A stretch of 64,000 nucleotides of DNA from Xiphias gladius. Taxonomy: Eukaryota; Chordata; Actinopteri; Istiophoriformes; Xiphiidae. The stretch covers positions 24,058,001 to 24,122,000 of the forward strand of contig NC_053422.1 in NCBI RefSeq assembly GCF_016859285.1, in the 5' to 3' direction. Positions within the stretch are counted from its first letter, which is position 1. Each line of letters begins with the position of its first letter. The notes below the pieces were generated by a model that saw only the letters and a program-made list of their open reading frames with translations, ran no database searches and was not told the DNA's origin. A program made the position numbers and the translations under genes. Of the stretch, positions 34,035 to 61,869 are shown one piece after another.

Positions 34035-34310
34035 GCAGGTTTACAAGGGGCTATGACTATTTCAGGAGCTGGAGTATTTATGCCAAACTAAGATAGCCAT
34101 CTGCTGGCTGTAGTTTCATATTTAGGATACAGACATGAGATTGGTATTGATCCTCTAATCTCATTTTCCACAAGAAAGTGAATGAGCTAGTCCTTTAAAA
34201 TACAACTAAGTCAGTTTTAACTGCTGTCAGGGTGTTCGGTGCACATGTAAATGTCTTTATTTTTATTCAGACTAAATGTCTCACAAAACAATCTGCATGG
34301 TGCGGCTTGT
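34035..34310 (+). repeat. tail of a further array unit (unit 0), deleted
   Basis: 34,218-34,310 matches 40,789-40,881 of unit 1 with about two differences in 93 bases; further left (34,035-34,217) the match is weaker and has indels. At 34,311 the sequence jumps from the equivalent of 40,881 straight to the start of unit 1. Compared with unit 1 this lacks about 1.75 kb, including the phosphatase relic. Both break ends share TGG, so a micro-homology deletion is likely. The weaker left part may partly be an independent copy of a dispersed repeat. Confidence 0.7.
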
Positions 34311-35029
34311 GGCCTCTCTGTCATCAGTATGACTTGTTTTATGGATAGTCCTTCTGAGTTTATTCCCTTATTTTTTGCTTAATTTCCAAGTTTTTGTGTA
34401 AAAATTTAGCAAATTTGATTTTAAGTACTTTGTAAATACATTTTGGTAATATTATTATTTAAACAATTATTTGAAAAAAATATATAAAAATGAAAAATTA
34501 AGAAATTAGGAGAGCACAGGAGTGATCAAGAAACATGTCGGACACATTGCAGGGGAAAAGCAATACAAATTTACCAGCTTAAAATAAGAATGTAAGACAG
34601 CTTCAGTGCTTGGTAATCAAAACAAGATAAACATCGAGACGTGATTATGTCATGTCTTGTCAATGGGAAAATTTGACGTGATGTTGTTAATGAAAAGGTT
34701 TCATAGTTACTAAGAAATGCAGATTAGTCCTCTGCAGGGACATGAATTTCATAGCAAATTGAATGGAAATCAGGTAAGAGGTAGTAGTAGCCTGATGGTT
34801 AGACTGAAGTGTAATCTTTTAAGGTATCTCATCCTTCCAAAACACACAAACACATTTGAAAGTAACCATTTTAAGTTATTTCATGTAGAATTCTTTAAAG
34901 GATTAAAGAATTGTGTAGTTGTGATAATTTGCTGCAAATATTGAGTCGAAGTGTAAATGACTGAGTTTTTTTGAATCACATGAGGCCAAGTGTGAATGGT
35001 TGTTAAGAAGGGATCATAACAAAAGTAAT

Positions 35030-35225
35030 CTCAGGGCTCTTTTCATATGGAGCAGGTCTAACCCGTACCCTTTACAATATTATTCAGAGAGACCCAACAT
35101 TCCCCCATGAGCAAGCACTTGGCGACAGTGGCGAGGAAAAATTCCCTCATAACGGGAAGAAACCTTGAGCAGAACCAGACTCTGGGTGGCTGGCCATCTG
35201 CCTTGACCGGTTGGGTTGGAGAGAA
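35030..35225 (+). repeat. LINE-tail-like dispersed repeat (also at 43,349-43,544 and 54,653-54,849)
   Basis: Contains GAGACCCAACATTCCCCCAT, GAGCAAGCACTTGGCGACAG, AAACCTTGAGCAGAACCAGA and GACCGGTTGGGTTGG, a string I associate with the 3' part of a very common fish retroposon. It lies just downstream of the kinase gene's stop codon (minus strand) in every unit. Confidence 0.7.
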
Positions 35226-35361
35226 AGAGAGGAGGGGAAGAGAAAAAGAGAGAGAGAGAGAGGGATAATGCCATCCGTTCATCCCTTCCCAGGAGATTTA
35301 ACAACCATTCACACTTGGCCTCCTCCAAAAAGTATGACTGATATGAATATGACATCCAGCA

Positions 35362-35371
35362 TTTATTTATT
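35362..35371 (-). other. polyadenylation signal overlapping the kinase stop codon
   Basis: On the minus strand the end of the gene reads AATAAATAAA, so two overlapping AATAAA signals include the last codons and the TAA stop. The same is true at 43681-43690 and 54986-54995. If used, the 3' UTR would be only some tens of bases. Confidence 0.5.
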
Positions 35372-38299
35372 GACTTTTTTCAGTCGTAAAATGGTCCTTA
35401 TTGCCCTGCCAAAGAATTTTCGGACTCTCTTCAGCGGGCTCTTCTTGACTTTAGCAGGCAGACTTTCATCGGGTGACCCGCCACTGGCCGATGCATCCTC
35501 AGCTGGACTGGTTGCACCTTGGCTAACAGATGGTTCCTTTATAGCTGAGCCAGTAGTGTCTATTCCTGCAGCAGCTTCTGCTCCTTCAGAAGACTGAGGC
35601 ATGTTTTTAATGCCATCACAGGAGCCAGGAAGGACTGAGCCTGCGTCTGTATGATGAGGTATGGCCGAAGGCTCTTCCTCTTTGGGCTCTTCCTCAGCCG
35701 CAGAGTCAAGAAATAGGTCCATGTTGTCCATTGGTAAGATCCTCATTTTCTCTAAAGAATCTTCGAGACTGAATAAAACATGACAATAAATGAATGGATC
35801 ACTCAATCAAAAAAAAAATCTGTCCATTAATCCAATCATGTATCTATCCAACCCTACTGAAAACAAAACACAGGCACTCACTAAAAGCTGGTGTCTATTT
35901 CATCTTCCAGATGGACCATTGTTACAAAGGGGTGATCGAGAGCCTTCCCCGGAGTGATTCTCTTCTCTGGGTCTGTATCTAGAAGGCATGTCAGGAGGCT
36001 GACAAAGGCTCTCTGATCCTCCAGCTCAATGGATTCCCGTGTGTCTGGGTTGTGCTGATTGAAAACAAAGTAGGTGACAGTTCAGTTTTAACTGCTTCCT
36101 GTCTCTCAGTGACAGAGGATATTGGTATTAATTCATTGTGTAGTCATGAAATGGACCACTTACTGTTATCAGGTCATCCAGACTTCTGATTGTTGTGTCC
36201 CATGTTTTCGGCTCAATTCCAGTGTCAAGCTGGTATTCCCTTGGGGTCTACAGGAACAAAACATGCAGGTCAGATACTTCTTCCTGAATGTGTTAAATAT
36301 TATAAAAGAGTTGTTGCCTAACTGGGAGATGTAAAATTGTGAACTGCTGAGCAAGGTTAAAATACCTTCATCCACCATCTTGGGCTGTCCAAGTGCTTTT
36401 CCACCTTGAAAAAATTTTGTGTGCATTTCCCAGCACAGAGAAGGTGGTCAGCTGGCTGGCCCAGGACGTCTACAATGCCCCTCATCTGGAGAGAGAACAT
36501 AAAGAATCACATCAGCCAACATCCTACAACAAGCCCCCTCGGTTTGGACATGTATCTGGGGCACAATGTAACAGTCTTTGCATTTGAATCTAGATCGGTT
36601 TGGTTACTTACTGACTGGTACTCGCAGTCTATCGCAAACAGGTGTTTGCAGAGGTACAAGACCCCGAGCACACAGCCTAGACTCCAAGCGTCTATGGCCT
36701 CGGAGAAGGGGAGGCCCAGGGTGACTTCAGGTGCCCTGTGTGTATCGTACAAGAGTCACAAGAGCTATTAAGTACACTGTCAAATTCAGCATATGTACTG
36801 ACGACTGACACAGCCTCTGCTGGATCATTTACAGCATAAACACACAATTGCAAACATGTTAAAAGATGAGCTTTGCAGATTGAACCTACCTGTAACCCAG
36901 AGGCTGAATTGTCTTCCCAAATACCTCTTCTCGGACACCGAATGACACGCCAAAATCTATCAGTTTTATTCTGAAGGGCTCACTCAGATGGTTTGCCAGC
37001 ATTATATTGTCTGGCTTCAGGTCTGAGTGAACCACACCAATGCCCTTCAGAGCATCCAAGGCCATCAGCAACTGCAGAGACAAAGGACACAATGTAGACG
37101 GTTAAAGTTACCATTGACCAGGGTGCAGGCTTAAACAGATCAAGAAGAAATACAGTTATGTTACTTCAGTATGTAACTTCTTTCCCAGCTGGCTGAGTAT
37201 CTTGCCGTTACTTGTTGATAGATTGATCAAAGCCACAGTCTTTACCTGGTGGGTTATTGGCCGTATCTCATGGAGAGAGAGTGGCGTCCCTTGCTGTTCG
37301 CTGAGCAGTTGTAAAAGACTCCTGTCCAGCATTTCAAACACTAGACAGGTATGTCCTTTGTGTTGAAACTGCTCAAAGAAATGAACCACATTCTTCATGG
37401 CTGGGTCAAGAACGCTCACTGCTTCAAGCATTTTGATCTGTGGGGAAAATAGGAAAAATGACATAGGTACTTAGCATTCTAGATGAAGTTCATTTAATAA
37501 GCAAAACATAAGCAAGAAAACATGAAAAACCTAATTATCAAAACGCATTAAATAAATTACCTCTCTTTTAGCGGTCTTTTCGGTTTTCAGGATCTTGAGG
37601 GCCACGTCCTGTGCTGTGATTAAATTCACAGCTTTAGCAACTTTGCCAAAGCACCCTTCGCTGAATTCTTTAATGAGGTAGCGACTTGTGCTGCTGCACA
37701 GTGTGTCGCTTATTTGCACCTCAGAGCTCTCTGATTTCTTCTTCTCATCTGTTACCGCGGACAGAGAAGCAGTACATGAGGGAGAGGAGGAGAACATGCG
37801 AAGGTTACAACATGGAGTCGGCAGGGTCATTCAGTCAACAGAACATGCACAAATGTAGCTGAAGCATTCAGTATAGTCATGTAAATAACATTTGGTTGTC
37901 ATTCTACGACCAATTGAAGAAGAATATTACGTCCGATATACTGAAAATGGCCAATGACTTCTTCAGTGATATTCCCAAAGAATGAGAAGAGCAACATATA
38001 CCGAATGAGAAAGAACGTGATCAAATGCTACACTGATCTTCAGCATTCAGATCATTTTCTCAAGAAGAAGTTACTCTGCCGTGTAAAAATGCTCATTTAA
38101 GTTTGAAGTCTTGAATTGAAAATGTTACGTACTAGGTAGGTATTATCGGAAACATTTACTTAAAGTATAAAAAGTTAGAAATGTTTCAAACTCTTAACCT
38201 GCAAAGTGACCTCTAGCTTCAGAATGAAAATTAGATACTTATAGTACAAGCATCCTAAGCACTGTGCTTGAGTAAATGTATTTAGTTACTTCTCATCAC

Positions 38300-38330
<31 letters not shown>

Positions 38331-38393
38331 TGAGTCTTACTTACCAGTTTTATCTGCTGTCAAGCAGCTGGCTGAATCAGAACGTGAAGACAT
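35363..38393 (-). CDS. HIPK-like protein kinase, copy 1 (505 aa, nine exons)
   Basis: Minus-strand coding exons: 38345-38393, 37561-37748, 37246-37437, 36890-37071, 36612-36735, 36366-36485, 36164-36247, 35882-36054 and 35363-35768. All introns have GT/AG ends and all phases join, giving 505 residues. The start is an ATG opening MSSRSDSASCL; the N-terminus is very short for a HIPK. The kinase domain spans about 40-360: Gly loop SEGCFGKV (46-53), Lys68 in VALKILK, Glu in KREIKMLEAV, hinge near CLVFEML, HSDLKPDN (158-165), DFG (182-184), YRAPEVTLGLPF, DAWSLGC, and HPFVTMVHL near the domain end. HxDLKPxN with RAPExxLGLPFxEAIDxWSLGC marks the HIPK family of Ser/Thr kinases, usually nuclear regulators of transcription factors and stress responses. 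Oddities: a 3-base deletion removes the first Gly of the loop, and the activation-loop STY becomes GKT. The C-terminal tail (372-505) is acidic, then Ser/Ala-rich, then strongly basic (SPLKRVRKFFGRAIRTIL). It is the only copy that I read without a frameshift. Confidence 0.88.
38300..38326 (+). repeat. (GT)n microsatellite beside the exon 1 donor
   Basis: Lies in intron 1 of the kinase gene, about 20 bases past the donor site. Equivalent arrays differ in length: about 9 repeats near 46,623-46,641 and about 14 near 57,926-57,954. A (CA)n array follows upstream of the gene at 38,770-38,813, 47,090-47,124 and 58,400-58,438. Confidence 0.9.
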
Positions 38394-38762
38394 TTTGCTG
38401 CAACAAATGTTTTTCCAGATGTGCTACTTCTTCAGTGTAACTTCTTCAACTAACTCTGGTCTGTGTTCTCACCTGAAGGTAAACAGACCAGCTCTTGATG
38501 ACACCACAATAGAACAAGATTCTATTCTATTAGAGGAAGATTCCATTCTAATCCTTTATCTGAAGAATGAAGGACGATCACTTGGTTTACAGACAAATTG
38601 TTCATTTCTGATTTATGCAGTTTATCACTTTCTATCCAATGTGTATTTCAAGTATAAGCATTCTAATTATAAGTCTTTTAAAGCTATGGCTGTCGCCACG
38701 TTTAATGGTCTGTTTTAGCCATAGTTACCTTTGTTTACCTGTTTATAGCAGAATGCAGTAGT

Positions 38763-38816
<54 letters not shown>

Positions 38817-40119
38817 CATATGTACAGTAGGTCAGTCATTTCTTTTGTTCAGACTTTACACCTTTTGCTCCAGAGAATTCTGGCTTCATAAATTCAGCTC
38901 ACATGCTGTCATGAAGAAAGGCAAGAGAGGCTTCCACCCCCAGATAAGGAGCTGTCACCAAGCAAAGAATTGCTGAACACTGTTGTGGATGATCAATCAA
39001 ACTGCTTTACAATTGTGCAATTTAAGGTTTTGACGTTAAATAGTCCTCATAATTACACTGTGCATGAGTTTATGGAATACTGTTGGTGAACTACTGAATT
39101 GTGAAATATTTTATGCATAACATTTGAAATTCACTGCTTTTGAATTTTAAAGTCAGATATTTTGAAATTCAGTTGAATATCAGCTATCTTTTGTACAGAT
39201 TTCAAGATGTTTATGTAATATAATAATAAACAGAATTGCCATATTCGTAGTCATAATGTGTGCGTGCGTGTGCTTTTTTAGTGTATGTGTGTGTGTGTGT
39301 GTTAGTGGTTGAGACAACTCAAAAAGGGACAGGGTTCATTAGTTCATCAGAGTTAAGCCATTCCCATAGAAATGCATGGAAACTCATGGTCATCAAGCTA
39401 CATTTTTCATCTTTTTTCCCCAAAAGTGTATTGGAAAACTTTTTTTTCTCACTTCAGTCTATCTGGTCATTAAGTGTGTGTGTGTGTGTGTGTGTATTGA
39501 GCGTACGGGAGCAAGAGAGCTTCAACCCCTCAGCTCGTCCTGGTGCCAGCAGCCAGATTGTATTAATGGCATAAATGAATCGAGCCCAGGAACCTTCGAG
39601 GGCGTGTTAGTGTCAGCAATGTTTCCAGAGGAAGAATATTCCCTGAACCCCGGGTGACTTTGGAATAAATGACATAAGAGCCCTTTGTTTTCAATCATCA
39701 GCAATACAGTAGAGCCACCTGCATTCCAATGTTTCTAGCTACTGGCTGACGTTAATTGGCTGTCAAAATACGGTGTTGACTGTTGGACCTGGTTGTCACA
39801 AAGCAGTGTTTAATGTAATGTGCCATGCTGGAGGAAACTGAGTCAACTCAGATTTACATGAAGTGCAGGTTCAGTATCGACCTGCAGGACTACATTTTTC
39901 AAATGAGATATCATTGACCGGTAACTAAAAGTAAAAATTTACAGTTCTGGAAACTGGTTTGAACTGACATCAGAAAAAAAATATGTAATTTAAAGTTTCC
40001 ATTTTCTTGCTAAGAGTTAGTTGAGAAGATTAATACCACTCTTGTCTGTTCACTATGAAGCTACAGCTAGCAGCAGGTTAGCTTATTTGAGCTAACTTAG
40101 GGATGACAAGACTCTTGCA

Positions 40120-40400
40120 GGGCAAACCAGTGGAGACTCCAGGATGCCACCACTTCCTGTCGGGAAATAGGTCCAGCTGTAATCCTCCATAAATCCACAA
40201 ATTCAGGTTTTAACACTTTGGATTTTGAATAATTTAAACCAAAACAGATATAATGTCTTAATTAGTGAGCTTTAGTGGTGCTGGTAGGTGATTTTTTTAC
40301 CTTTGGAAAGAACCAGGGTAGCTGTTTCCACCTGTTTACACTAAGCTAGGCTAACCAGCTGCTGGTTCCAGCTTCATTTTGAACAGATGTGAGAGTCTCT
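40120..40400. repeat. dispersed-repeat-like segment (also in the other units)
   Basis: Contains GTGGAGACTCCAGGATGCCA, GTGAGCTTTAGTGGTGCTGG and TTTACACTAAGCTAGGCTAA, which I associate with an abundant interspersed repeat of perciform fishes; its class is uncertain. Copies lie at about 48,450-48,730, 51,690-51,985 and 59,780-60,070, and a diverged relative lies outside the array at 62,265-62,375. Confidence 0.5.
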
Positions 40401-41689
40401 AAGCAAGAAGGGCAATAAGTTTTTCCCAAAAATATCAAAATATTCCTTTTAACATTTGAAAGTCTGTGTAACTAGGGCACCAAAATGAAAGCTGAGCTAA
40501 AGCTTGTAGTCATAACTGCTACCTGCATCAATTTATGAAGTCTGGACATAAATATTATTTAGACCACAGTTTTACAAAGGGCTATGTGTTAGACTATTTT
40601 TGAGGAGGTGGTGCATTTATGCTCAGATAAGCCAGTCATCTGCTGGCTGTAACTTCATATTTAGCATACAGACATGAGATTGGTATTAATCTTCTCATCT
40701 CACTCTCAACGAGAACGTGAACAAGCTGATTTTCCCAGAAAGTTGAGCTCCTCCTTAAAATACAACAAAGTAGCTGACCTGAGTTTTAACTGCTGTCAGG
40801 GTGTTGGGTGCACATGTAAATGTCTTTATTTTTATTCAGACTAAATGTCTCGCAAAACAATCTGCATGGTGCGGCTTGTGGTGTTAAAATGGTGGTTATC
40901 TGTAAACTGTCAGTCTGGTTGTTATATGGCTGCCCAGCACCTCTCTCACCAGTTGTTCTTCTAACTTGCACCACTTGTGGCTTTGCATTGAAACTCTAGT
41001 CTGAAATGTTGATTGTTTTAACCAAAAAAGTATTTTGTAAGAACAAACTGGCCAACAGCTGCATTGCTACGACAAATGGGGGCTTACTATCGGGAATTAT
41101 CTCGGGGGATAGGTTGACCACTGACATATTAGCTTAAACTTTCCTCTAGAGTAGTAGTAGTAGTGTGTGCTTATGTTTAGAGCTGACAGACTTGTGCCCA
41201 ATTGTGAATGATTTTACTATGATTGGTCATAATCTCTCTCTCTCTGTTGAGAGGAAAAGAGATATAATCCAGTTGTTTCTTGGCAGAATCACAAGTCCAT
41301 ATTATGTCCCAAAAATATATTTTTATTGCGGGATAGGCAAAAAAAAATTCAGCCTTTTTGTAATCTAATTTTTTTAACAGTTCACAGCTCTCTTCATGAG
41401 TGAAATAAACACCACAATTAGTTTGAATATATTGAATCATTCATGCTGAAATTAGCATGATTTCAAGGTGTTTAATGACCTTATATATAAATAACTAAGT
41501 ATTATGTATTTAGGTAGGAATGGCTGTCCATAACAAAATCCACTGTCCTTCAAATGTTTCCTTGCTGAACCAATTAAGATGTCTATTGATTCCAAAATAA
41601 ATGCTTTTTGTACTTTGCAGCCTCAGATTTGTTGGATTTCTGAACTGCCTTCACTGTCACAGCTGCCTCAGTGATTTGATTGTGGGTAA

Positions 41690-41905
41690 TTCAATTCAAT
41701 TCAATTCAATTCAATTTTATTTCTATAGCGCCAAATCATAACAGAGATTATCTCAGGGCACTTTTCATATAGAGCAGGTCTAGACCGTACTCTTTATAGT
41801 TATATTTACAGAGACCCAACATTGCCCCATGAGCAAGCAATTGGCGACAGCAGCCAGTAAAAATTCCCTTTTAACAGGTAGAAACCTTGAACAGAACTAC
41901 TGTAC
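41690..41905 (+). repeat. (AATTC)n plus LINE-tail-like repeat
   Basis: AATTC repeats precede TTTTATTTCTATAGCGCCAA, GAGCAGGTCTAGACCGTACT, GAGCAAGCAATTGGCGACAG and AAACCTTGAACAGAAC. Same family as the repeat at 35,030-35,225 and in the same orientation, so each unit holds two direct copies about 6.7 kb apart. Other copies: 50,058-50,275, 52,986-53,200 and 61,379-61,590. Confidence 0.75.
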
Positions 41906-42321
41906 TAATACAATAATGTAAAAAGAATCCAGTTCAAAAAGTCTTGTATTCAACGTCCTTCAAAATAGTCACAAAAAATATACTTAAGTTAAAAATGTAA
42001 CAGTATATGTCATCCAAATCGTGACGAGATAAATTTTGAGATGATTAATGTGGTAGGAAAGAGGAAAAAATTATACATTCATTTGTCAAACTTTTATCCA
42101 ATCTGTGCTTTTTTTATTTTTATTTTTAAATTTGGTCTCTCTGGGCCTCAAAGACTGATTAAAATGAAACCACCTGAGACGTTTAGAAGGGAAATCTCTT
42201 TTGATGCAACTGCTAACAGCTCATAGACATCTGAAACTTGATAAGGGGTTCAGTGTTTTTTGAGGTGTCAAAAAGCAAGTGGGTTGGGAACCACTGGTTT
42301 AGTTTATTGTACTTTGTAAGC

Positions 42322-42639
42322 CTATCGTGTCATTTTTAATTTGATATCATCTGGCCTCTTCTTCAGATATGTCTGGTGTCTGCCCAGTGGAGGAGGAGAC
42401 CAGACAGAGTTGCATCCACAAAGCTCCATCTCATACCAGATGAACTGCTTCCATAAGACATTATTCGGCCTTACCAGGGGTCGACAGGTCTCCACCCACC
42501 TGTGGGCCTCCAGGAGAGTCACACCACGGTGCTCCATCAGATAGGCCATGCACAGGGTGCTGGAGCAGCTCGCACAGGCGCTGCAATTCACAAATGTGCA
42601 GCCTCTGTGCTGTATTTTATCTGTCATTGGCCTCTCTGT
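42322..42639 (-). pseudogene. DUSP14/18-like phosphatase relic, unit 1
   Basis: About 100 residues stay open to a TAG stop. The protein resembles the C-terminal half of the atypical dual-specificity phosphatases DUSP14/18/21: TDKIQHRGCTFV, then the active-site loop NCSACASCSSTLCMAYLM, LLEAHRWVETCRPLVRPN, WKQFIWYEMELCG, and a TYLKKRP-like tail. In the family the loop is HCxxGxSRS. Here the catalytic Cys is kept, but His is Asn, the Gly is Cys and the phosphate-binding Arg is Cys (CGC to TGC), so activity is not expected. The N-terminal half, which would carry the substrate-recognition region and general-acid Asp, is absent: similarity ends at the unit border (42,628/42,629). It is a truncated intronless relic. 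Confidence 0.7.
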
Positions 42640-43681
42640 CATCAGTATGACTTGTTTTATGGATAGTCCTTCTGAGTTTATTCCCTTATTTTTTGCTTAA
42701 TTTCCAAGTTTTTGTGTAAAAAATTTAGCAAATTTGATTTTAAGTACTTTGTAAATACATTTTGGTAATATTATTATTTAAACAATTATTTGAAAAAAAT
42801 ATATAAAAATGAAAAATTAAGAAATTAGGAGAGCACAGGAGTGATCAAGAAACATGTCGGACACATTGCAGGGGAAAAGCAATACAAATTTACCAGCTTA
42901 AAATAAGAATGTAAGACAGCTTCAGTGCTTGGTAATCAAAACAAGATAAACATCGAGACGTGATTATGTCATGTCTTGTCAATGGGAAAATTTGACGTGA
43001 TGTTGTTAAAGAAAAGGTTTCATAGTAACTAAGAAATGCAGATTAGTCCTCTGCAGGGACATGAATTTCATAGCAAATTGAATGGAACTTAGGTAAGAGG
43101 TAGTAGTAGCCTGATGGTTAGACCGAAGTGTAATCTTTTAAGGTATCTCATCCTTCCAAAACACACAAACACATTTGAAAGTAACCATTTTAAGTTATTT
43201 CATGTAGAATTCTTTAAAGGATTAAAGAATTGTGTAGTTGTGATAATTTGCTGCAAATATTGAGTCGAAGTGTAAATGACTGGGTTTTTTTGAATCACAT
43301 GAGGCCAAGTGTGAATGGTTGTTAAGAAGGGATCATAACAAAAGTAATCTCAGGGCTCTTTTCATATGGAGCAGGTCTAACCCGTACCCTTTACAATATT
43401 ATTCAGAGAGACCCAACATTCCCCCATGAGCAAGCACTTGGCGACAGTGGCGAGGAAAAATTCCCTCATAACGGGAAGAAACCTTGAGCAGAACCAGACT
43501 CTGGGTGGCTGGCCATCTGCCTTGACCGGTTGGGTTGGAGAGAAAGAGAGGAGGGGAAGAGAAAAAGAGAGAGAGAGAGAGGGATAATGCCATCCGTTCA
43601 TCCCTTCCCAGGAGATTTAACAACCATTCACACTTGGCCTCCTCCAAAAAGTATGACTGATATGAATATGACATCCAGCAT

Positions 43682-46600: not shown

Positions 46601-46710
46601 GTATTTAGTTACTTCTCATCACTGTGTGTGTGTGTGTGTGTATGTGTTGAGTCTTACTTACCAGTTTTATCTGCTGTCAAACAGCTGGCTGAATCAGAAC
46701 GTGAAGACAT
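43682..46710 (-). pseudogene. HIPK-like protein kinase, copy 2, frameshifted
   Basis: Same exon layout as copy 1: 46662-46710, 45880-46071, 45565-45756, 45208-45390, 44930-45053, 44684-44802, 44483-44565, 44201-44373 and 43682-44087, with splice sites kept. As written it has four one-base indels: an extra T in exon 2 (T-run 45,991-45,994), just before the Gly loop; an extra A in exon 4 (A-run near 45,270-45,274), right at DFG; a lost base in the A/T-run of exon 6 (44,727-44,735); and a lost base in exon 7 near 44,529. The Gly loop itself keeps GEGCFG, unlike copy 1. Exons 3, 5, 8 and 9 are intact. Most indels are in homopolymers, so sequencing error is possible, but the exon 7 loss is shared with copy 4 and is probably real. 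Confidence 0.85.
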
Positions 46711-47079
46711 TTTGCTGCAACAAATGTTTTTCCAGATGTGCTACTTCTTCAGTGTAACTTCTTCAACTAACTCTGGTCTGTGTTCTCACCTGAAGGTAAA
46801 CAGACCAGCTCTTGATGACACCACAATAGAACAAGATTCTATTCTATTAGAGGAAGATTCCATTCTAATCCTTTATCTGAAGAATGAAGGACAATCACTT
46901 GGTTTACAGACAAATTGTTCATTTCTGATTTATGCAGTTGATCACTTTCTATCCAATGTGTATTTCAAGTATAAGCATTCTAATTATAAGTCTTTTAAAG
47001 CTATGGCTGTCGCCACATTTAATGGTCTGTTTTAGCCATAGTTACCTTTGTTTACCTGTTTATAGCAGAATGCAGTAGT

Positions 47080-50100: not shown

Positions 50101-50461
50101 GCCAAATCATAACAGAGGTTATCTCAGGGAACTTTTCATATAGAGCAGGTCTAGACCGTACTCTTTATAGTTATATTTACAGAGACCCATCATTGCCCCA
50201 TGAGCAAGCAATTGGCGACAGCAGCCAGTAAAAACTCCCTTTTAACAGGTAGAAACCTTGAACAGAACTACTGTTCTAATACAATAATGTAAAAAGAATC
50301 CAGTTCAAAAAGTCTTGTATTCAACGTCCTTCAAAATAGTCACAAAAAATATACTTAAGTTAAAAATGTAACAGTATATGTCATCCAAATCGTCACGAGA
50401 TAAATTTTGAGATGATTAATGTGGTAGGAAAGAGGAAAAAATTATACATTCATTTTTCAAA

Positions 50462-50961
50462 NNNNNNNNNNNNNNNNNNNNNNNNNNNNNNNNNNNNNNN
50501 NNNNNNNNNNNNNNNNNNNNNNNNNNNNNNNNNNNNNNNNNNNNNNNNNNNNNNNNNNNNNNNNNNNNNNNNNNNNNNNNNNNNNNNNNNNNNNNNNNNN
50601 NNNNNNNNNNNNNNNNNNNNNNNNNNNNNNNNNNNNNNNNNNNNNNNNNNNNNNNNNNNNNNNNNNNNNNNNNNNNNNNNNNNNNNNNNNNNNNNNNNNN
50701 NNNNNNNNNNNNNNNNNNNNNNNNNNNNNNNNNNNNNNNNNNNNNNNNNNNNNNNNNNNNNNNNNNNNNNNNNNNNNNNNNNNNNNNNNNNNNNNNNNNN
50801 NNNNNNNNNNNNNNNNNNNNNNNNNNNNNNNNNNNNNNNNNNNNNNNNNNNNNNNNNNNNNNNNNNNNNNNNNNNNNNNNNNNNNNNNNNNNNNNNNNNN
50901 NNNNNNNNNNNNNNNNNNNNNNNNNNNNNNNNNNNNNNNNNNNNNNNNNNNNNNNNNNNNN
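50462..50961. other. assembly gap of exactly 500 N
   Basis: A round 500-N run is normally a placeholder for unknown length. The left flank ends at unit position equivalent to 42,090 and the right flank resumes at the equivalent of 39,336, so following the unit order about 5.6 kb is missing. That part would contain a phosphatase relic and an entire kinase copy. Confidence 0.9.
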
Positions 50962-53934
50962 TCATTCGTTCATCAGAGTTAAGCCATTCCCATAGAAATG
51001 CATGGAAACTCATGGTCATCGAGCTACATTTTTCATCTTTTTTCCCCAAAAGTGTATTGGAAAACTTTTTTTATAATTAATTCTCACTTCAGTCTATCTG
51101 GTCATTAAGTGTGTGTGTGTGTGTGTATTGAGCGTACGGGAGCAAGAGAGCTTCAACCCCTCAGCTCGTCCTGGTGCCAGCAGCCAGATTGTATTAATGG
51201 CATAAATGAATCGAGCCCAGGAACCTTCGAGGGCGTGTTAGTGGCAGCAATGTTTCCAGAGGGAAGAATATTCCCTGAACCCCGGGTGACTTTGGAATAA
51301 ATAACACAAGAGCCCTTTGCTCTCAATCATCAGCAACACAGTAGAGCCACCTGCATTACAATGTTTCTAGCTACTGGCTGACGTTAATTGGCTGTCAAAA
51401 TACGGTGTTGACTGTTGGACCTGGTTGTCACAAAGCAGTGTTTAATGTAATGTGCCATGCTGGAGGAAACTGAGTCAACTCAGATTTACATGAAGTGCAG
51501 GTTCAGTATCGACCTGCAGGACTACATTTTTCAAATGAGATATCATTGACCGGTAACTAAAAGTAAGAATTTACAGTTCTGGAAACTGGTTTGAACTGAC
51601 TGGTTTGTCTGTTCAGTATGAAGCTACAGCTAGCAGCAGGTTAGCTTATTTGAGCTAACTTAGGGATGACAAGACTCTTGCAGGGCAAACCAGTGGAGAC
51701 TCCAGGATGCCACCACTTCCTGTCGGGAAATAGGTCCAGCTGTAATCCTCCATAAATCCACAAATTCAGGTTTTAACACTTTGGATTTTGAATAATTTAA
51801 ACCAAAACAGATATAATGTCTTAATTAGTGAGCTTTAGTGGTGCTGGTAGGTGATTCTTTTTACCTTTGGAAAGAACCAGGGTAGCTTTTTCCACCTGTT
51901 TACACTAAGCTAGGCTAACCAGCTGCTGGTTCCAGCTTCATTTTGAACAGATGTGAGAGTCTCTAAGCAAGAAGGGTAATAAGCGTTCCCAGAAAGTTGA
52001 GCTCCTCCTTTAAAATACAACAAAGTAGCTGACCTGAGTTTTAACTGCTATCAGGGTGTTGGGTGCACATGTAAATGTCTTTATTTTTATTCAGACTAAA
52101 TGTCTCGCAAAACAATCTGCATGGTGCGGCTTGTGGTGTTAAAATGGTGGTTATCTGTAAACTGTCAGTCTGGTTGTTATATGGCTGCCCAGCACCTCTC
52201 TCACCAGTTGTTCTTCTAACTTGCACCACTTGTGGCTTTGCATTGAAACTCTAGTCTGAAATGTTGATTGTTTTAACCAAAAAAGTATTTTGTAAGAACA
52301 AACTGGCCAACAGCTGCATTGCTACGACAAATGGGGGCTTACTATCGGGAATTATCTCGGGGGATAGGTTGACCACTGACAGATTAGGTTAAACTTTCCT
52401 CTAAAGTAGTAGTAGTAGTGTGTGCTTATGTTTAGAGCTGACAGACTTGTGCCCAATTGTGAATGATTTTACTATGATTGGTCATAATCTCTCTCTCTCT
52501 GTTGAGAGGAAAAGAGATATAATCCAGTTGTTTCTTGGCAGAATCACAAGTCCATATTATGTCCCAAAAATATATTTTTATTGCGGGATAGGCAAAAAAA
52601 AATTCAGCCTTTTTGTAATCTAATTTTTTTAACAGTTCACGGCTCTCTTCATGAGTGAAATAAACACCACAATTAGTTTGAATATATTGAGTCATTCATG
52701 CTGAAATTAGCATGATTTCAAGGTGTTTAATGACCTTATAGATAAATAACTAAGTATTATGTATTTAGGTAGGAATGGCTGTCCATAACAAAATCCACTG
52801 TCCTTCAAATGTTTCCTTGCTGAACCAATTAAGATGTCTATTGATTCCAAAATAAATGCTTTTTGTACTTTGCAGCCTCAGATTTGTTGGATTTCTGAAC
52901 TGCCTTCACTGTCACAGCTGCCTCAGAGATTTGACACCTGGATATAATCAGTGGTAGCAGGTGTTTTAAGATACTTAAGTAAGAGTAATTCAATTCAATT
53001 CAATTCAATTCAATTTTATTTATATAGCGCCAAATCATAACAGAGGTTATCTCAGGGCACTTTTCATATAGAGCAGGTCTAGACCGTACTCTTTATAGTT
53101 ATATTTACAGAGACCCAACATTGCCCCATGAGCAAGCAATTGGCGACAGCAGCCAGTAAAAACTCGCTTTTAACAGGTAGAGACCTTGAACAGAACCCGG
53201 CTAACTGTACTAATACAATACTGTAAAAAGAATCCAGTACAAAAAGTCTTGCATTCAAAGTCCTTCAAAATAGTCACAAAAAATATACTTAAGTTAAAAA
53301 TGTAACAGTATATGTCATCCAAATCGTCACGAGATAAATTTTGAGATGATTAATGTGGTAGGAAAGAGGAAAAAATTATACATTCATTTGTCAAACTTTT
53401 ATCCAATCTGTGCTTTTTTTATTTTTATTTTTAAATTTGGTCTCTCTGGGCCTCAAAGACTGATTAAAATGAAACCACCTGAGACGTTTAGAAGGGAAAT
53501 CTCCTTTTGGTGCAACTGCTAACAGCTCATAGGCATCTGAAACTTGATAAGGGGTTGAATGTTTTTTGAGGTGTCAAAAAGCAAGTGGGTTGGGAACCAC
53601 TGGTTTATTTTATTGTACTTTGTAAGCCTATCGTGTCATTTTTAATTTGATATCATCTGGCCTCTTCTTCAGATATGTCTGGTGTCTGCCCAGTGGAGGA
53701 GGAGACCAGACAGAGTTGCATCCACAAAGCTCCATCTCATACCAGATGAACTGCTTCCATAAGACATTATTCGGCCTTACCAGGGGTCGACAGGTCTCCA
53801 CCCACCTGTGGGCCTCCAGGAGAGTCACACCACGGTGCTCCATCAGATAGGCCATGCACAGGGTGCTGGAGCAGCTCGCACAGGCGCTGCAATTCACAAA
53901 TGTGCAGCCTCTGTGCTGTATTTTATCTGTCGTT
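50962..53934. repeat. tandem array unit 3, right part only
   Basis: Matches unit 1 positions 39,336-42,628, ending at the next unit start at 53,935. Two internal deletions set it apart: about 100 bases at 51,597-51,602 and about 350 bases at about 51,985. It contains the dispersed repeat, the (AATTC)n LINE-tail repeat and a phosphatase relic, but no kinase exon. Confidence 0.9.
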
Positions 53935-53945
53935 GGCCTCTCTGT
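53628..53945 (-). pseudogene. DUSP14/18-like phosphatase relic, unit 3
   Basis: Same 100-residue frame as the unit 1 copy with a single residue difference (Thr for Met near the start), including the loop with Asn-Cys at its start and Cys in place of Arg. Again it stops at the unit border (53,934/53,935), so the truncation predates the duplication. Confidence 0.7.
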
Positions 53946-54986
53946 CATCAGTATGACTTGTTTTATGGATAGTCCTTCTGAGTTTATTCCCTTATATTTT
54001 GCTTAATTTCCAAGTTTTTGTGTAAAAATTTAGCAAATTTGATTTTAAGTACTTTGTAAATACATTTTGGTAATATTATTATTTAAACAATTATTTGAAA
54101 AAAATATATAAAAATGAAAAATTAAGAAATTAGGAGAGCACATGAGTGATCAAGAAACATGTCGGACACATTGCAGGGGAAAAGCAATACAAATTTACCA
54201 GCTTAAAATAAGAATGTAAGACAGCTTCAGTGCTTGGTAATCAAAACAAGATAAACATCGAGACGTGATTATGTCATGTCTTGTCAATGGGAAAATTTGA
54301 CGTGATGTTGTTAATGAAAAGGTTTCATAGTTACTAAGAAATGCAGATTAGTCCTCTGCAGGGACATGAATTTCATAGCAAATTGAATGGAAATCAGGTA
54401 AGAGGTAGTAGTAGCCTGATGGTTAGACTGAAGTGTAATCTTTTAAGGTATCTCATCCTTCCAAAACACACAAACACATTTGAAAGTAACCATTTTAAGT
54501 TATTTCATGTAGAATTCTTTAAAGGATTAAAGAATTGTGTAGTTGTGATAATTTGCTGCAAATATTGAGTCGAAGTGTAAATGACTGAGTTTTTTTGAAT
54601 CACATGAGGCCAAGTGTGAATGGTTGTTAAGAAGGGATCATAACAAAAGTAATCTCAGGGCTCTTTTCATATGGAGCAGGTCTAACCCGTACCCTTTACA
54701 ATATTATTCAGAGAGACCCAACATTCCCCCATGAGCAAGCACTTGGCGACAGTGGCGAGGAAAAATTCCCTCATAACGGGAAGAAACCTTGAGCAGAACC
54801 AGACTCTGGGTGGCTGGCCATCTGCCTTGACCGGTTGGGTTGGAGAGAAAGAGAGGAGGGGAAGAGAAAAAGAGAGAGAGAGAGAGGGATAATGCCATCC
54901 TTTCATCCCTTCCCAGGAGGTTTAACAACCATTCACACTTGGCCTCCTCCAAAAAGTATGACTGATATGAATATGACATCCAGCAT

Positions 54987-57923
54987 TTATTTATTGACTT
55001 TTTTCAGTCGTAAAATGGTCCTTATTGCCCTGCCAAAGAATTTTCGGACTCTCTTCAGCGGGCTCTTCTTGACTTTAGCAGGCAGACTTTCATCGGGTGA
55101 CCCGCCACTGGCCGATGCATCCTCAGCTGGACTGGTTGCACCTTGGCTAACAGTTGGTTCCTTTATAGCCGAGCCAGTAGTGTCTATTCCTGCAGCAGCT
55201 TCTGCTCCTTCAGAAGACTGAGGCATGTTTTTAATGCCATCACAGGAGCCAGGAAGGACTGAGCCTGCGTCTGTATGACGAGGTATGGCCGAAGGCTCTT
55301 CCTCTTGGGCTCTTCCTCAGCCGCACAGTCAAGAAATAGGTCCATGTTGTCCATTGGTAAGATCCTCATTTTAGCTAAAGAATCTTCAACACTGAATAAA
55401 ACATGACAATAAATGAATGGATCACTCAATCAATAAACAAATCTGTCAATTAATCCAATCATGTATCTATCCAACCCTACTGAAAACAAAACACAGGCAC
55501 TCACTAAAAGCTGGTGTCTATTTCATCTTCCAGATGGACCATTGTTACAAAGGGGTGATCGAGAGCCTTCCCCGGAGTGATTCTCTTCTCTGGGTCTGTA
55601 TCTAGAAGGCATGTCAGCAGGCTGACAAAGGCTCTCTGATCCTCCAGCTCAATGGATTCCCGTGTGTCTGGGTTGTGCTGATTGAAAACAAAGTAGGTGA
55701 CAGTTCAGTTTTAACTGCTTCCTGTCTCTCAGTGACAGAGGATATTGGTATTAATTCATTGTGTAGTCATGAAATGGACCACTTACTGTTATCAGGTCAT
55801 CCAGACTTCTGATTGTTGTGTCCCATGTTTTCGCTCAATTCCAGTGTCAAGCTGGTATTCCCTTGGGGTCTAGAGGAACGAAACATGCAGGTCAGATACT
55901 TCTTCCTGAATGTGTTAAATATTATAAAAGAGCTGTTGCCTAACTGGGAGATGTAAAATTGTGAACTGCTGAGCAAGGTTAAAATACCTTCATCCACCAT
56001 CTTGGGCTGTCCAAGTGCTTTTCCACCTTGAAAAAATTTGTGTGCATTTCCCAGCACAGAGAAGGTGGTCAGCTGGCTGGCCCAGGACGTCTACAATGCC
56101 CCTCATCTGGAGAGAGAACATAAAGAATCACATCAGCCAACATCCTACAACAAGCCCCCTCTCGGGTTTGGACATGTATCTGGGGCACAATGTAACAGTC
56201 TTTGCATTTGAATCTAGATCGGTTTGGTTACTTACTGACTGGTACTCGCAGTCTATCGCAAACAGGTGTTTGCAGAGGTACAAGACCCCGAGCACACAGC
56301 CTAGACTCCAAGCGTCTATGGCCTCGGAGAAGGGGAGGCCCAGGGTGACTTCAGGTGCCCTGTGTGTATCGTACAAGAGTCACAAGAGCTATTAAGTACA
56401 CTGTCAAATTCAGCATATGTACTGACGACTGACACAGCCTCTGCTGGATCATTTACAGCATAAACACACAATTGCAAACATGTTAAAAGATGAGCTTTGC
56501 AAATTGAACCTACCTGTAACCCAGAGGCTGAATTGTCTTCCCAAATACCTCTTCTCGGACACCGAATGACACGCCAAAATCTATCAGTTTTATTCTGAAG
56601 GGCTCACTCAGATGGTTTGCCAGCATTATATTGTCTGGCTTCAGGTCTGAGTGAACCACACCAATGCCCTTCAGAGCATCCAAGGCCATCAGCAACTGCA
56701 GAGACAAAGGACACAATGTAGACGGTTAAAGTTACCATTGACCAGGGTGCAGGCTTAAACAGATCAAGAAGAAATACAGTTATGTTACTTCAGTATGTAA
56801 CTTCTTTCCCAGCTGGCTGAGTATCTTGCCGTTACTTGTTGATAGATTGATCAAAGCCACAGTCTTTACCTGGTGGGTTATTGGCCGTATCTCATGGAGA
56901 GAGAGTGGCGTCCCTTGCTGTTCGCTGAGCAGTTGTAAAAGACTCCTGTCCAGCATTTCAAACACTAGACAGGTATGTCCTTTGTGTTGAAACTGCTCAA
57001 AGAAATGAACCACATTTTTCATGGCTGGGTCAAGCACGCTCACTGCTTCAAGCATTTTGATCTGTGGGGAAAATAGGAAAAATGACATAGGTACTTAGCA
57101 TTCTAGATGAAGTTCATTTAATAAGCAAAACATAAGCAAGAAAACATGAAAAACCTAATTATCAAAACGCATTAAATAAATTACCTCTCTTTTAGCGGTC
57201 TTTTCGGTTTTCAGGATCTTGAGGGCCACGTCCTGTGCTGTGATTAAATTCACACCTTTAGCAACTTTGCCAAAGCACCCTTCGCCGCTGAATTCTTTAA
57301 TGAGGTAGCGACTTGTGCTGCTGCACAGTGTGTCGCTTATTTGCACCTCAGAGCTCTCTGATTTCTTCTTCTCATCTGTTACCGCGGACAGAGAAGCAGT
57401 ACATGAGGGAGAGGAGGAGAACATGCGAAGGTTACAACATGGAGTCGGCAGGGGTCATTCAGTCAACAGAACATGCACAAATGTAGCTGAAGCATTCAGT
57501 ATAGTCATGTAAATAACATTTGGTTGTCATTCTACGACCAATTGAAGAAGAATATTACGTCCGATATACTGAAAATGGCCAATGACTTCTTCAGTGATAT
57601 TCCCAAAGAATGAGAAGAGCAACATATACCGAATGAGAAAGAACGTGATCAAATGCTACACTGATCTTCAGCATTCAGATCATTTTCTCAAGAAGAAGTT
57701 ACTCTGCCGTAAAAAATGCTCATTTAAGTTTGAAGTCTTGAATTGAAAATGTTACGCATTAGGTAGGTATTATCGAAACATTTACTTAAAGTATAAAAAG
57801 TTAGAAATGTTTCAAACTCTTAACCTGCAAAGTGACCTCTAGCTTCAGAATGAAAATTAGATACTTATAGTACAAGCATCCTAAGCACTGTGCTTGAGTA
57901 AATGTATTTAGTTACTTCTCATC

Positions 57924-57960
<37 letters not shown>

Positions 57961-58023
57961 TGAGTCTTACTTACCAGTTTTATCTGCTGTCAAACAGCTG
58001 GCTGAATCAGAACGTGAAGACAT
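54987..58023 (-). pseudogene. HIPK-like protein kinase, copy 4, frameshifted
   Basis: Exons 57975-58023, 57185-57375, 56870-57061, 56514-56695, 56236-56359, 55988-56106, 55787-55869, 55505-55677 and 54987-55391, with GT/AG borders. Exons 1-5 are open and keep the full Gly loop GEGCFGKV, VALKILK, HSDLKPDN, IDFG and YRAPEV, so the ATP-binding and catalytic core looks better than in copy 1. Exon 6 lacks one T (56,037-56,039), exon 7 lacks one base near 55,833 (shared with copy 2) and exon 9 lacks one T near 55,306. Together these would replace the lower C-lobe and tail. Real decay or consensus errors in homopolymers are both possible; the exon 7 change is not in a long run and is shared, which favours real loss. 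Confidence 0.85.
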
Positions 58024-58392
58024 TTTGCTGCAACAAATGTTTTTCCAGATGTGCTACTTCTTCAGTGTAACTTCTTCAACTAACTCTGGTCTGTGTTCTC
58101 ACCTGAAGGTAAACAGACCAGCTCTTGATGACACCACAATAGAACAAGATTCTATTCTATTAGAGGAAGATTCCATTCTAATCCTTTATCTGAAGAATGA
58201 AGGACAATCACTTGGTTTACAGACAAATTGTTCATTTCTGATTTATGCAGTTGATCACTTTCTATCCAATGTGTATTTCAAGTATAAGCATTCTAATTAT
58301 AAGTCTTTTAAAGCTATGGCTGTCGCCACGTTTAATGGTCTGTTTTAGCCATAGTTACCTTTGTTTACCTGTTTATAGCAGAATGCAGTAGT

Positions 58393-58438
<46 letters not shown>
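57926..58438 (+). repeat. unit 4 GT and CA microsatellites
   Basis: A (TG)14-type array at about 57926-57954 and a (CA)n array at 58400-58438, in the same places as in units 1 and 2. Confidence 0.88.
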
Positions 58439-58442
<4 letters not shown>

Positions 58443-58910
58443 CATATGTACAGTAGGTCAGTCATTTCTTTTGTTCAGACTTTACACCTTTTGCTCCAGA
58501 GAATTCTGGCTTCATAAATTCAGTTCACATGCTGTCATGAAGAAAGGCAAGAGAGGCTTCCACCCCCAGATAAGGAGCTGTCACCAAGCAAAGAATTGCT
58601 GAACACTGTTGTGGATGATCAATCAAACTGCTTTAAAATTGTGCAAGTTAAGGTTTTGACGTTAAATAGTCCTCATAATTACACTGTGCATGAGTTTATG
58701 GAATACTGTTGGTGAACTACTGAATTGTGAAATATTTTATGCATAACATTTGAAATTCACTGCTTTTGAATTTTAAAGTCAGATATTTTGAAATTCAGTT
58801 GAATATCAGCTATCTTTTGTACAGATTTCAAGATGTTTATGTAATATAATAATAAACAGAATTGCTGGCCGTATTCGTAGTCATAGTGTGTGCGTGCGTG
58901 TGCTTTTTTA

Positions 58911-58944
<34 letters not shown>

Positions 58945-61716
58945 TGTTGAGACAACACAAAAAGGGACAGGGTTCATTCGTTCATCAGAGTTAAGCCATT
59001 CCCATAGAAATGCATGGAAACTCATGGTCATCGAGCTACATTTTTCATCTTTTTTCCCCAAAAGTGTATTGGAAAACTTTTTTTATAATTAATTCTCACT
59101 TCAGTCTATCTGGTCATTAAGTGTGTGTGTGTGTGTGTGTATTGAGCGTACGGGAGCAAGAGAGCTTCAACCCCTCAGCTCGTCCTGGTGCCAGCAGCCA
59201 GATTGTATTAATGGCATAAATGAATCGAGCCCAGGAACCTTCGAGGGCGTGTTAGTGGCAGCAATGTTTCCAGAGGGAAGAATATTCCCTGAACCCCGGG
59301 TGACTTTGGAATAAATAACACAAGAGCCCTTTGTTTTCAATCATCAGCAATACAGTAGAGCCACCTGCATTACAATGTTTCTAGCTACTGGCTGACGTTA
59401 ATTGGCTGTCAAAATACGGTGTTGACTGTTGGACCTGGTTGTCACAAAGCAGTGTTTAATGTAATGTGCCATGCTGGAGGAAACTGAGTCAACTCAGATT
59501 TACATGAAGTGCAGGTTCAGTATCGACCTGCAGGACTACATTTTTCAAATGAGATATCATTGACCGGTAACTAAAAGTAAAAATTTACAGTTCTGGAAAC
59601 TGGTTTGAACTGACATCAGAAAAAAAATATGTAATTTAAAGTTTCCATTTTCTTGCTAAGAGTTAGTTGAGAAGATTAATACCACTCTTGTCTGTTCACT
59701 ATGAAGCTACAGCTAGCAGCAGGTTAGCTTATTTGAGCTAACTTAGGGATGACAAGACTCTTGCAGGGCAAACCAGTGGAGACTCCAGGATGCCACCACT
59801 TCCTGTCAAGAAATAGGTCCAGCTGTAATCCTCCATAAATCCACAAATTCAGGTTTTAACACTTTGGATTTTGAATAATTTAAACCAAAACAGATATAAT
59901 GTCTTAATTAGTGAGCTTTAGTGGTGCTGGTAGGTGATTTTTTTACCTTTGGAAAGAACCAGGGTAGCTGTTTCCACCTGTTTACACTAAGCTAGGCTAA
60001 CCAGCTGCTGGTTCCAGCTTCATTTTGAACAGATGTGAGAGTCTCTAAGCAAGAAGGGCAATAAGCGTTTTTCCCAAAATATCAAAATATTCCTTTTAAC
60101 ATTTGAAAGTCTGTGTAACTAGGGCACCAAAATGAAAGCTGAGCTAAAGCTTGTAGTCATAACTGCTACCTGCATCAATTTATGAAGTCTGGACATAAAT
60201 ATTATTTTAGACCACAGTTTTACAAAGGGCTATGTGTTAGACTATTTTTGAGGAGGTGGTGCATTTATGCTCAGATAAGCCAGTCATCTGCTGGCTGTAA
60301 CTTCATATTTAGCATACAGACATGAGATTGGTATTAATCTTCTCATCTCACTCTCAACGAGAACGTGAACAAGCTGATTTTCCCAGAAAGTTGAGCTCCT
60401 CCTTTAAAATACAACAAAGTAGCTGACCTGAGTTTTAACTGCTGTCAGGGTGTTGGGTGCACATGTAAATGTCTTTATTTTTATTCAGACTAAATGTCTC
60501 GCAAAACAATCTGCATGGTGCGGCTTGTGGTGTTAAAATGGTGGTTATCTGTAAACTGTCAGTCTGGTTGTTATATGGCTGCCCAGCACCTCTCTCTCAC
60601 CAGTTGTTCTTCTAACTTGCACCACTTGTGGCTTTGCATTGAAACTCTAGTCTGAAATGTTGATTGTTTTAACCAAAAAAGTATTTTGTAAGAACAAACT
60701 GGCCAACAGCTGCATTGCTACGACAAATGGGGGCTTACTATCGGGAATTATCTCGGGGGATAGGTTGACCACTGACAGATTAGCTTAAACTTTCCTCTAG
60801 AGTAGTAGTAGTAGTGTGTGCTTATGTTTAGAGCTGACAGACTTGTGCCCAATTGTGAATGATTTTACTATGATTGGTCATAATCTCTCTCTCTGTTGAG
60901 AGGAAAGAGATATAATCCAGTTGTTTCTTGGCAGAATCACAAGTCCATATTATGTCCCAAAAATATATTTTTATTGTGGGATAGGCAAAAAAAAATTCAG
61001 CCTTTTTGTAATCTAATTTTTTTAACAGTTCACAGCTCTCTTCATGAGTGAAATAAACACCACAATTAGTTTGAATATATTGAGTCATTCATGCTGAAAT
61101 TAGCATGATTTCAAGGTGTTTAATGACCTTATAGATAAATAACTAAGTATTATGTATTTAGGTAGGAATGGCTGTCCATAACAAAATCCACTGTCCTTCA
61201 AATGTTTCCTTGCTGAACCAATTAAGATGTCTATTGATTCCAAAATAAATGCTTTTTGTACTTTGCAGCCTCAGATTTGTTGGATTTCTGAACTGCCTTC
61301 ACTGTCACAGCTGCCTCAGTGATTTGACACCTGGATATAATCAGTGGTAGCAGGTGTTTTAAGATACTGAAGTCAGGGTAATTCAATGCAATTCAATTCA
61401 AATCAATTTTGTTTATATAGCGCCAAATCATAACAGAGGTTATCTCAGGGCACTTTTCATATAGAGCAGGTCTAGACCGTACTCTTTATAGTTATATTTA
61501 CAGAGACCCGACATTGCCCCATGAGCAAGCAATTGGCGACAGCAGCCAGTAAAAACTCCCTTTTAACAGGTAGAAACCTTGAACAGAACTACTGTACTAA
61601 TACAATAATGTAAAAAGAATCCAGTTCAAAAAGTCTTGTATTCAACGTCCTTCAAAGTAGTCACAAAAAATATACTTAAGTTAAAAATGTAACAGTATAT
61701 GTCATCCAAATCGTCA

Positions 61717-61743
61717 CGGGATAAATTGGTAAAATTTATCCCG
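61717..61743. repeat. palindrome at the right array junction
   Basis: CGGGATAAATT and its exact reverse complement flank GGTAA (11-bp arms). The left arm is unit 4 sequence (CGAGATAAATT in the other units) and the right arm leads into the orphan exon, so the inverted copy was made at the junction. Confidence 0.92.
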
Positions 61744-61869
61744 CATTAAATAAATTACCTCTCTTTTAGCGGTTTCTTCGGTTTTCAAGATCTTGAGGGC
61801 CACGTCCTGTGCTGTGATTAAATTCACACCTTTCGCAACCTTCCCCCAGCACCCTTCGCCGCTGAATTC
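61743..61869 (-). pseudogene. orphan HIPK-like exon 2 fragment
   Basis: 61759-61869 encodes 37 residues matching the 3' part of kinase exon 2: EFSGEGCWGKVAKGVN, then DVALKILKTEETAKRE, followed by the donor GT and the first bases of intron 2 (GTAATTTATTTAATGC). The Gly loop and catalytic Lys are intact; Phe is Trp and Lys is Glu compared with copies 1-4, and there are several more base changes. It therefore comes from an older or different family member. Similarity stops at GAATTC (61,864-61,869). No other kinase exon follows, so it cannot make a kinase. Confidence 0.88.

Follow-up and report, generated by a model that had tools for sequence, protein, structure and literature searches.

A probable edge of a protein-coding macrosatellite of HIPK-like kinase genes in Xiphias gladius, extending from a small scaffold gap into loose contigs

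Gene-bearing tandem arrays and the Xiphias gladius locus

The human RS447 array consists of 4.7-kb units, each encoding the deubiquitinating enzyme USP17, and its unit number ranged from 20 to 103 among 37 individuals from Japan (PMC3599962). A comparable array is described here at a locus of Xiphias gladius that was approached through a stretch of 64,000 bp (G000:C23:24058001-24122000), termed the window, within an examined genome of 690.8 Mb in 1298 contigs. Its units carry a gene for a kinase related to the homeodomain-interacting protein kinases (HIPKs). As far as the available parts of the cited reports describe the published systems, the locus resembles RS447 in the head-to-tail order of its kilobase units, the presence of a protein gene per unit, the high identity and the large number of units, and differs from it in that the gene is an intron-bearing kinase gene, the units measure 8-9 kb and fall into two types plus hybrids, and a single genome is considered. 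Both kilobase-scale units in head-to-tail arrangement and many highly similar units, as expected of a macrosatellite, were found. The window is likely to contain the edge of a protein-coding macrosatellite of at least 141 kb and at least 16 units that bears a HIPK-like kinase gene, evolves by unequal crossing-over and retains some intact copies.

For fishes, an expansion of the HIPK family is in print for the yellow goosefish (PMC7729161), which bears out the statement of an earlier note on this DNA that HIPK-like genes expand in fish lineages, and Hipk1 is listed among the gene families unique to the marine medaka (PMC7493909). The two reports share the gene family and the vertebrate group with the present array, but concern family expansion or membership as opposed to tandem array structure. 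In the ovotestis of yellowfin seabream, the level of a 'HIPK1-like' transcript, which may or may not be related to the array gene, exceeded that in testis by 9 log2 units (PMC7378800). No tandem HIPK array in a fish was recognised in the open-licence literature, judged from the openings of abstracts.

Repeat units and extent of the array on contig C23

Self-comparison of the window revealed three same-strand copies of an 8.3-kb unit, head to tail, with starts at 34310, 42628 and 53934. The earlier note had recognised the same three units, each one base too far to the right (34,311, 42,629 and 53,935). The spacing between the first two units, U1 and U2, is 8318 bp. With indels included, 34310-41679 is 98.6% identical to 42628-50006 (7401 columns) and to 53934-61327 (7409 columns), and the same value is reached between 41686-50406 and 52985-61727 (8758 columns); chance cannot be the source of these matches. 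Substitutions over 7.7 kb amount to 0.89% between U1 and U2, 0.87% between U1 and U4 and 0.79% between U2 and U4.

All units lie on the forward strand. U1 (34310-42627) is a complete type A unit whose left end splits a frame resembling a dual-specificity phosphatase (DUSP), U2 (42628-50461) is a type A unit that lost its right end to a scaffold gap of 500 N (50462-50961), and U4 (53934-61727) is again of type A. The remaining unit, U3 (50962-53933), had correctly been described as a fourth one cut by the gap: what is present in the window runs from unit position 5027 to the unit's right end. It shows 1.24-1.55% substitutions relative to the other units and lacks stretches of 312, 49 and 20 bp that are present in U1, U2 and U4; deletions at the site of its two small gaps recur in units on loose contigs. 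The kinase half that belongs to U3 by contig joining is found on loose contig C324 (C324:21031-23507). An interpretation of U3 as the other allele of U2, produced by contig overlap at the gap, was ruled out, as C324 and C325 abut position 50962.

The left array border is formed by an older, diverged unit fragment on the forward strand (34036-34309; 78% identical to unit positions 6258-6569). On the right, a type B unit begins at 61728 on the same strand and fills the remainder of the window to 64000. It opens with an exon-1 remnant (61742-61869, 91-94% similar to kinase exon 1), followed by 5.4 kb of other DNA without exons 2-8, and runs to window coordinate 67289, beyond the window, where the array ends; no array matches of at least 300 bases were present in the 16.7 kb to the right of this point. 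Of the two end remnants that the earlier note had proposed, the left one therefore stands, while the right one is the start of a unit, and the interval assigned to the array (34035..61869) ends too early. In total, the array on the chromosome-scale contig C23 spans at least 141,019 bp: 16,152 bp precede the gap, 108,539 bp are assigned to it and 16,328 bp follow.

The part of the array hidden by the scaffold gap

A search with one unit retrieved the loose contigs C324, C1147 and C576, and a protein search added C325, C572, C328, C327 and C1157 together with a further kinase copy at 17.68 Mb of C23. Contigs C324, C325, C572, C576, C1147 and C1157 are built of window-type units. Contig C325 (83,539 bp, examined to base 82000) stops at marker position 1094 and C324 (25,000 bp) opens at 1095; C324 in turn stops at marker position 566 and the window sequence at 50962 opens at 567. 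Both joins were read from marker coordinates, and a direct join test took in the second of them and three others: clean spanning alignments were obtained in 27 of 30 cases for C324/50962, 28 of 30 for C576/C1147, nine of ten for C1157/C576 and all 22 for C328/C327. Five control pairings of contig ends, including 50461/50962, yielded 0 spanning alignments each. Because the contig ends join base-exactly, C325 and C324 together place 108,539 bp of array directly to the left of 50962. The gap hides at least 108.5 kb, and the earlier note took the array to be far too small.

Most array units seem to have been displaced from the small gap into loose contigs of the assembly. Four array contigs have sizes in whole thousands (25,000, 39,000, 34,000 and 5,000 bp). 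Hi-C misjoin correction on a 1-kb grid cuts contigs at whole thousands, and such a tool presumably made this assembly and cut out the array contigs. A similar case is the Y centromere of the threespine stickleback, in which a repeat beside a gap had been removed as 3D-DNA/Hi-C debris (PMC7368989). In both systems, units adjoining a scaffold gap were recovered among removed contig pieces; the stickleback repeat is a centromeric satellite with a 187-bp core, whereas the units considered here are gene-bearing.

Two contig ends, C325:1-16000 and C572:1-6400, are only ~84-95% identical with many indels and probably represent poor consensus. The kinase gene in this part of C325, C325a, shows 28-32 indels per kb relative to window-type copies. 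Yet C325 also contains 276 bp of DUSP sequence that match U1 at 100%.

Unit types and unit numbers

Unit size is 8-9 kb across the array, and the two unit types have ~3.3 kb in common. A type A unit contains an eight-exon HIPK-like kinase gene with a DUSP fragment just downstream. In a type B unit, unit position 7726 is followed by exon 1, of which ~128 bp are kept, the 5.4 kb of other DNA and a return to unit position 4461. Most type B units lack the kinase gene: the type B marker is followed by exons 2-8 in 4 of 16 cases, these being the four hybrid copies, in which a B-type upstream region precedes exons 2-8 (C1147b, C1157, C572c and C576a).

Units were counted with a marker of the part shared by both types (window 40732-41679, forward strand; unit positions 6423-7370). 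Genome-wide it gave at least 48 matches, a lower bound with 40 of 48 candidates scored. Units with a shared marker of at least 89% identity number 28, and 22 are full-length at 97% or more. Sixteen of the 28 are located on C23 or joined to it, namely U1-U4, nine units that follow each other on C325 and three on C324; 14 are base-joined, and U1 and U2 are connected across the gap by scaffold order. The other 12 are on loose contigs: seven on C576+C1147+C1157 (one split over a join), four on C572 and one on C654 (89%). These 12 units may be alleles. Additionally, shared-marker units of diverged subtypes were observed on C328 (four) and at 17.68 Mb of C23 (at least one), and a second marker revealed further fragments on C843 (89%) and C853 (93%), seen as matches only. 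Within ten fetched stretches, including 94 kb around the window, the markers were counted 23 times for exon 8, 23 for exon 2, 16 for type B, 32 for the shared part and 20 for DUSP.

Structure and product of the kinase gene

Each full unit of the window (U1, U2 and U4) carries a HIPK-like kinase gene on the minus strand with eight coding exons and GT/AG intron ends. The earlier note had counted nine kinase exons; their common order and strand hold. In U1, the gene (35363-37797) is open over 505 residues, with exons E1-E4 at 37561-37797, 37246-37437, 36890-37071 and 36612-36735 and exons E5-E8 at 36366-36485, 36164-36247, 35882-36054 and 35363-35768. The genes of U2 (43682-46154) and U4 (54987-57458), both also on the minus strand, contain frame breaks as assembled, the former in E1, E3, E5 and E6 and the latter, with its P-loop intact, in E5, E6 and E8. 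The rebuilt 505-residue product proposed from the letters is consequently exact for U1, with U2 and U4 not open as assembled. This product starts at the second ATG; the first, 33 nt upstream, would yield 516 residues. Across the 23 kinase copies considered, every junction of every copy has GT/AG splice dinucleotides.

All Pfam matches of the U1 product are of kinase type, the best being PF00069 (E 1.8e-41, residues 58-368 of the 516-residue version). The closest solved structures are HIPK2 (1e-76, 261.7 bits) and HIPK3 (2e-71, 244.1 bits), ahead of DYRK1A (4e-43, 150.8 bits). By these scores, taken without a tree, the kinase resembles HIPK more than other CMGC kinases. Together with the units found by self-comparison, this supports the earlier description of the locus, in which HIPK-like kinase genes form a tandem array. 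In an alignment to 6p5s, the catalytic Lys, the HSD Asp, DFG and APE are all retained. In HIPKs, a long C-terminal part comprises homeobox-interaction, PEST and SUMO-interaction regions. While HIPK2 and HIPK3 are the closest solved relatives over the entire kinase domain, the 505-residue product differs from both: the long C-terminal region is absent, HSD is present in place of HAD, and the activation-loop tyrosine, Y361 in HIPK2, is replaced ('cstylqsryyrape' in HIPK2 vs 'gktiqplgyrape').

Divergence among copies and possible selection on the kinase domain

Related unit subtypes with a 0.6-0.7-kb insertion near unit position 633 occur on C328, C327 and C23:17678001-17688000. For the exon/intron comparison, the window-type group comprised 13 copies, leaving aside the four hybrids and the error-rich C325a, and the C328 group was taken without C327; the counts of replacement and silent changes (dN/dS) kept these 13 copies, the C328 group now consisting of C328a, C328b, C328c and C327. 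The survey of variation within the array was restricted to matches of at least 96% identity and at least 200 bases outside C328, C327 and the 17.68-Mb locus. Mean substitutions in exons 2-8 range from 0.4 to 1.6% among window-type copies (C325a apart) and from 0.35 to 0.45% among C328/C327 copies, compared to 3.4-4.4% between groups, with group means of 3.8-4.4% for C328/C327 units against the window type. According to this pattern, each array has been homogenised separately. The earlier note had deduced a very recent duplication, which fits the differences of 0.79-0.89% between window units and does not fit the subtypes at 3.4-4.4% or the diverged copies of the non-kinase part, of 77-79% identity, elsewhere. 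The units within the array have probably been made alike by ongoing exchange; the 0.8% would therefore date the last homogenisation.

In the kinase domain, dN/dS between subtypes is 0.50 (window consensus/C328), 0.35 (window consensus/17.68 Mb) and 0.26 (C328/17.68 Mb), and within the window it is 0.14 for U1-U4 and 0.16 for U1-U2. Without CpG sites, the corresponding values are 0.36, 0.30 and 0.22 between subtypes, 0.18 for U1-U4 and 0.28 for U1-U2. The excess of silent changes has one-sided p values from 0.041 to 2.7e-5 in the five comparisons, which are not independent. Values below 1 suggest constraint on the kinase domain. In the tail, dN/dS between subtypes is 1.26, 2.02 and 1.05, resting on 2-4 silent changes, and the comparison of tail with kinase domain gives p = 0.057, 0.37 and 0.050. 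Positive selection on the tail was rejected as a reading, given the few silent changes and weak p values; the data describe a tail with no visible constraint.

Alternative explanations

Several observations weigh against a large array with working kinase genes. The first concerns unit number: the C1157+C576+C1147 chain is colinear with two other contigs, with C325 through 43.8 kb (97.8% identity, 0.75% mismatches) and with C572 through 16.0 kb (98.7% identity, 0.49% mismatches). The extra copies could thus partly belong to the other haplotype, and whether both C572 and the C1157+C576+C1147 chain are the second allele of the array is evenly balanced. Their divergence is, however, no lower than within one contig chain, in which blocks of C324 and C325 match over 17 kb at 98.7% with 0.55% mismatches, and the 16 units counted on C23 are independent of these contigs. 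Copy-number variation between individuals is plausible, with one genome examined.

The second group of observations concerns gene integrity. Fully open frames of 505 residues are present in 3 of the 23 copies as assembled (U1, the 17.68-Mb copy of C23 and C328c), U1 being the only one in the window, and the array could therefore consist mostly of pseudogenes. In C328a, compensating shifts leave a frame of 501 residues, and C327 stays open up to the end of its sequence, its exon 8 lying on C328; the 20 copies that are not fully open include the four hybrids, which have no start, and C327, cut by the contig end. In U1, the open copy of the window, the codon for the first glycine of the P-loop (GxGxxG) is missing, as in C328b; U2, U4 and the other rows of the exon-1 alignment keep it. 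Between subtypes, kinase dN (0.032, 0.029 and 0.028) is close to intron divergence (0.035, 0.023 and 0.036), so that the argument for constraint loses weight. Divergence at silent sites exceeds that of introns 2-4-fold, also without CpG sites. Exons do not vary less than introns within the window type and do not differ clearly from them between subtypes. Measured against introns as a neutral reference, the kinase domain shows hardly any constraint or none. The contrast between silent and replacement sites was tentatively preferred since both kinds of site share the base composition of the exon.

A satellite-like array of mostly dead kinase genes with a few working copies, to which the scarcity of kinase exons behind type B markers would also conform, is accordingly a serious competitor, judged somewhat less than an even prospect. 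The frameshifts themselves are of limited use here. A survey of 18 of the 23 copies (without C1147b, C1157, C572c, C576a and C325a) detected 70 short exonic indels, 61 of them at homopolymers or CpG, and two sites, 36623 and 36662, recur in five copies each. Many of these exonic indels may be errors of an unpolished long-read consensus. Since 18 of the 24 short intronic indels lie in the same contexts, indel context alone cannot decide, and counting pseudogenes from frameshifts was rejected as unreliable. Further arguments against an array of dead genes are the kinase-domain dN/dS below 1, also without CpG sites, and the splice sites retained in all copies. Considering the sequence evidence on both sides, some kinase copies are probably functional.

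A third explanation involves the DUSP-like fragment. Minus-strand frames resembling DUSP14/18/21 cross the U1/U2 border (42325-42696, containing only the second domain half) and the U3/U4 border (53631-54002; PF00782, E 3.9e-10; DUSP21 8i7o, E 3.5e-21). At the former, PF00782 matches with 40.0 bits at C23:24100430-24100627 (window 42430-42627). Only profile positions 68-131 of 133 are covered and a complete HCx5R domain was not found; the signature is degraded, reading NCSACASCS where DUSP has HCAAGVSRS. The DUSP segments of the C328 and 17.68-Mb subtypes are 96.8% alike, next to 88.7-96.2% in neighbouring stretches, and special constraint on this segment is not supported within the array. The half-domain might form a 3' exon of the kinase gene, giving a kinase-phosphatase fusion. 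It lies ~1 kb downstream of the kinase on the same strand in the array, and an older copy at 24.797-24.800 Mb of C23 presents a diverged kinase exon 8 (69%, two internal stops), the DUSP half-domain and the shared marker (79%) in the same order, with no first domain half listed. Such a fusion is nonetheless very improbable: the AG ahead of the DUSP domain start lacks a pyrimidine tract, kinase exon 8 ends in its own stop and the catalytic arginine of the DUSP is lost.

Finally, an assembly artefact that wrote a single unit several times, for which the location beside a scaffold gap and among loose contigs could be cited and whose detection the earlier note had named as a refutation, is extremely unlikely and was ruled out by the base-exact contig joins, by the run of nine consecutive shared-part units on C325 and by differences among units in substitutions, deletions and type.

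Older relatives and other repeats

A further diverged locus at 26.84 Mb of C23 has a shared-marker copy of 77% identity and a DUSP fragment that scores under the family cut-off. Given these diverged copies elsewhere on C23, the unit seems to predate the present array. A unit fragment of 98% identity is found farther right on the contig, ~0.8 Mb from the array (G000:C23:24921081-24921379). Other HIPK-like loci include a second tandem array on the loose contig C773 (G000:C773:276-49423) with 12 copies that are 43-48% identical to the kinase and mostly spaced ~4.0 kb apart, with one interval of 8.0 kb, as well as a cluster at G000:C15:23.13-23.67 Mb and on C440, C828 and C647 with 52-67% identity to parts of the kinase. 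Inside the unit, positions 704-867 and 7426-7588 (window 35013-35176 and 41735-41897) form a 163-bp direct repeat, ~84% identical, which is perhaps a short interspersed element. Outside the array, window 26588-27546 contains a helix-turn-helix match (PF13936, E 7e-8) and can be read as the remains of a Tc1-like transposon.

Proposed dynamics and implications

In the preferred reading, a kinase macrosatellite with some intact copies, unequal crossing-over would cause the array to grow and shrink while keeping its units ~99% alike. Some copies would stay intact, encoding a Ser/Thr kinase of ~505 residues in which the catalytic domain is conserved while the acidic/basic tail changes freely. Its product is predicted to be a catalytically competent HIPK relative that is reduced to the kinase domain and would not be switched on by the HIPK-type autophosphorylation of the activation-loop tyrosine. 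Kinase dose would then be set by the number of intact copies. A more far-reaching proposal, that a variable-number kinase macrosatellite with constrained catalytic domains and unconstrained tails constitutes a dosage-tuned, diversifying family, possibly engaged in germline or host-parasite conflict, is speculative and rather unlikely.

For genome analysis, the locus is a case in which more than 100 kb of gene-bearing sequence have shrunk to a short scaffold gap, and gene-bearing arrays of this kind can be recovered among loose contigs through base-exact joins. Reference-based copy counts of this kinase family are therefore probably wrong, as are association or expression studies mapped to it. 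Should copy number vary among individuals of Xiphias gladius, the array would provide a natural series of gene doses for a signalling kinase.

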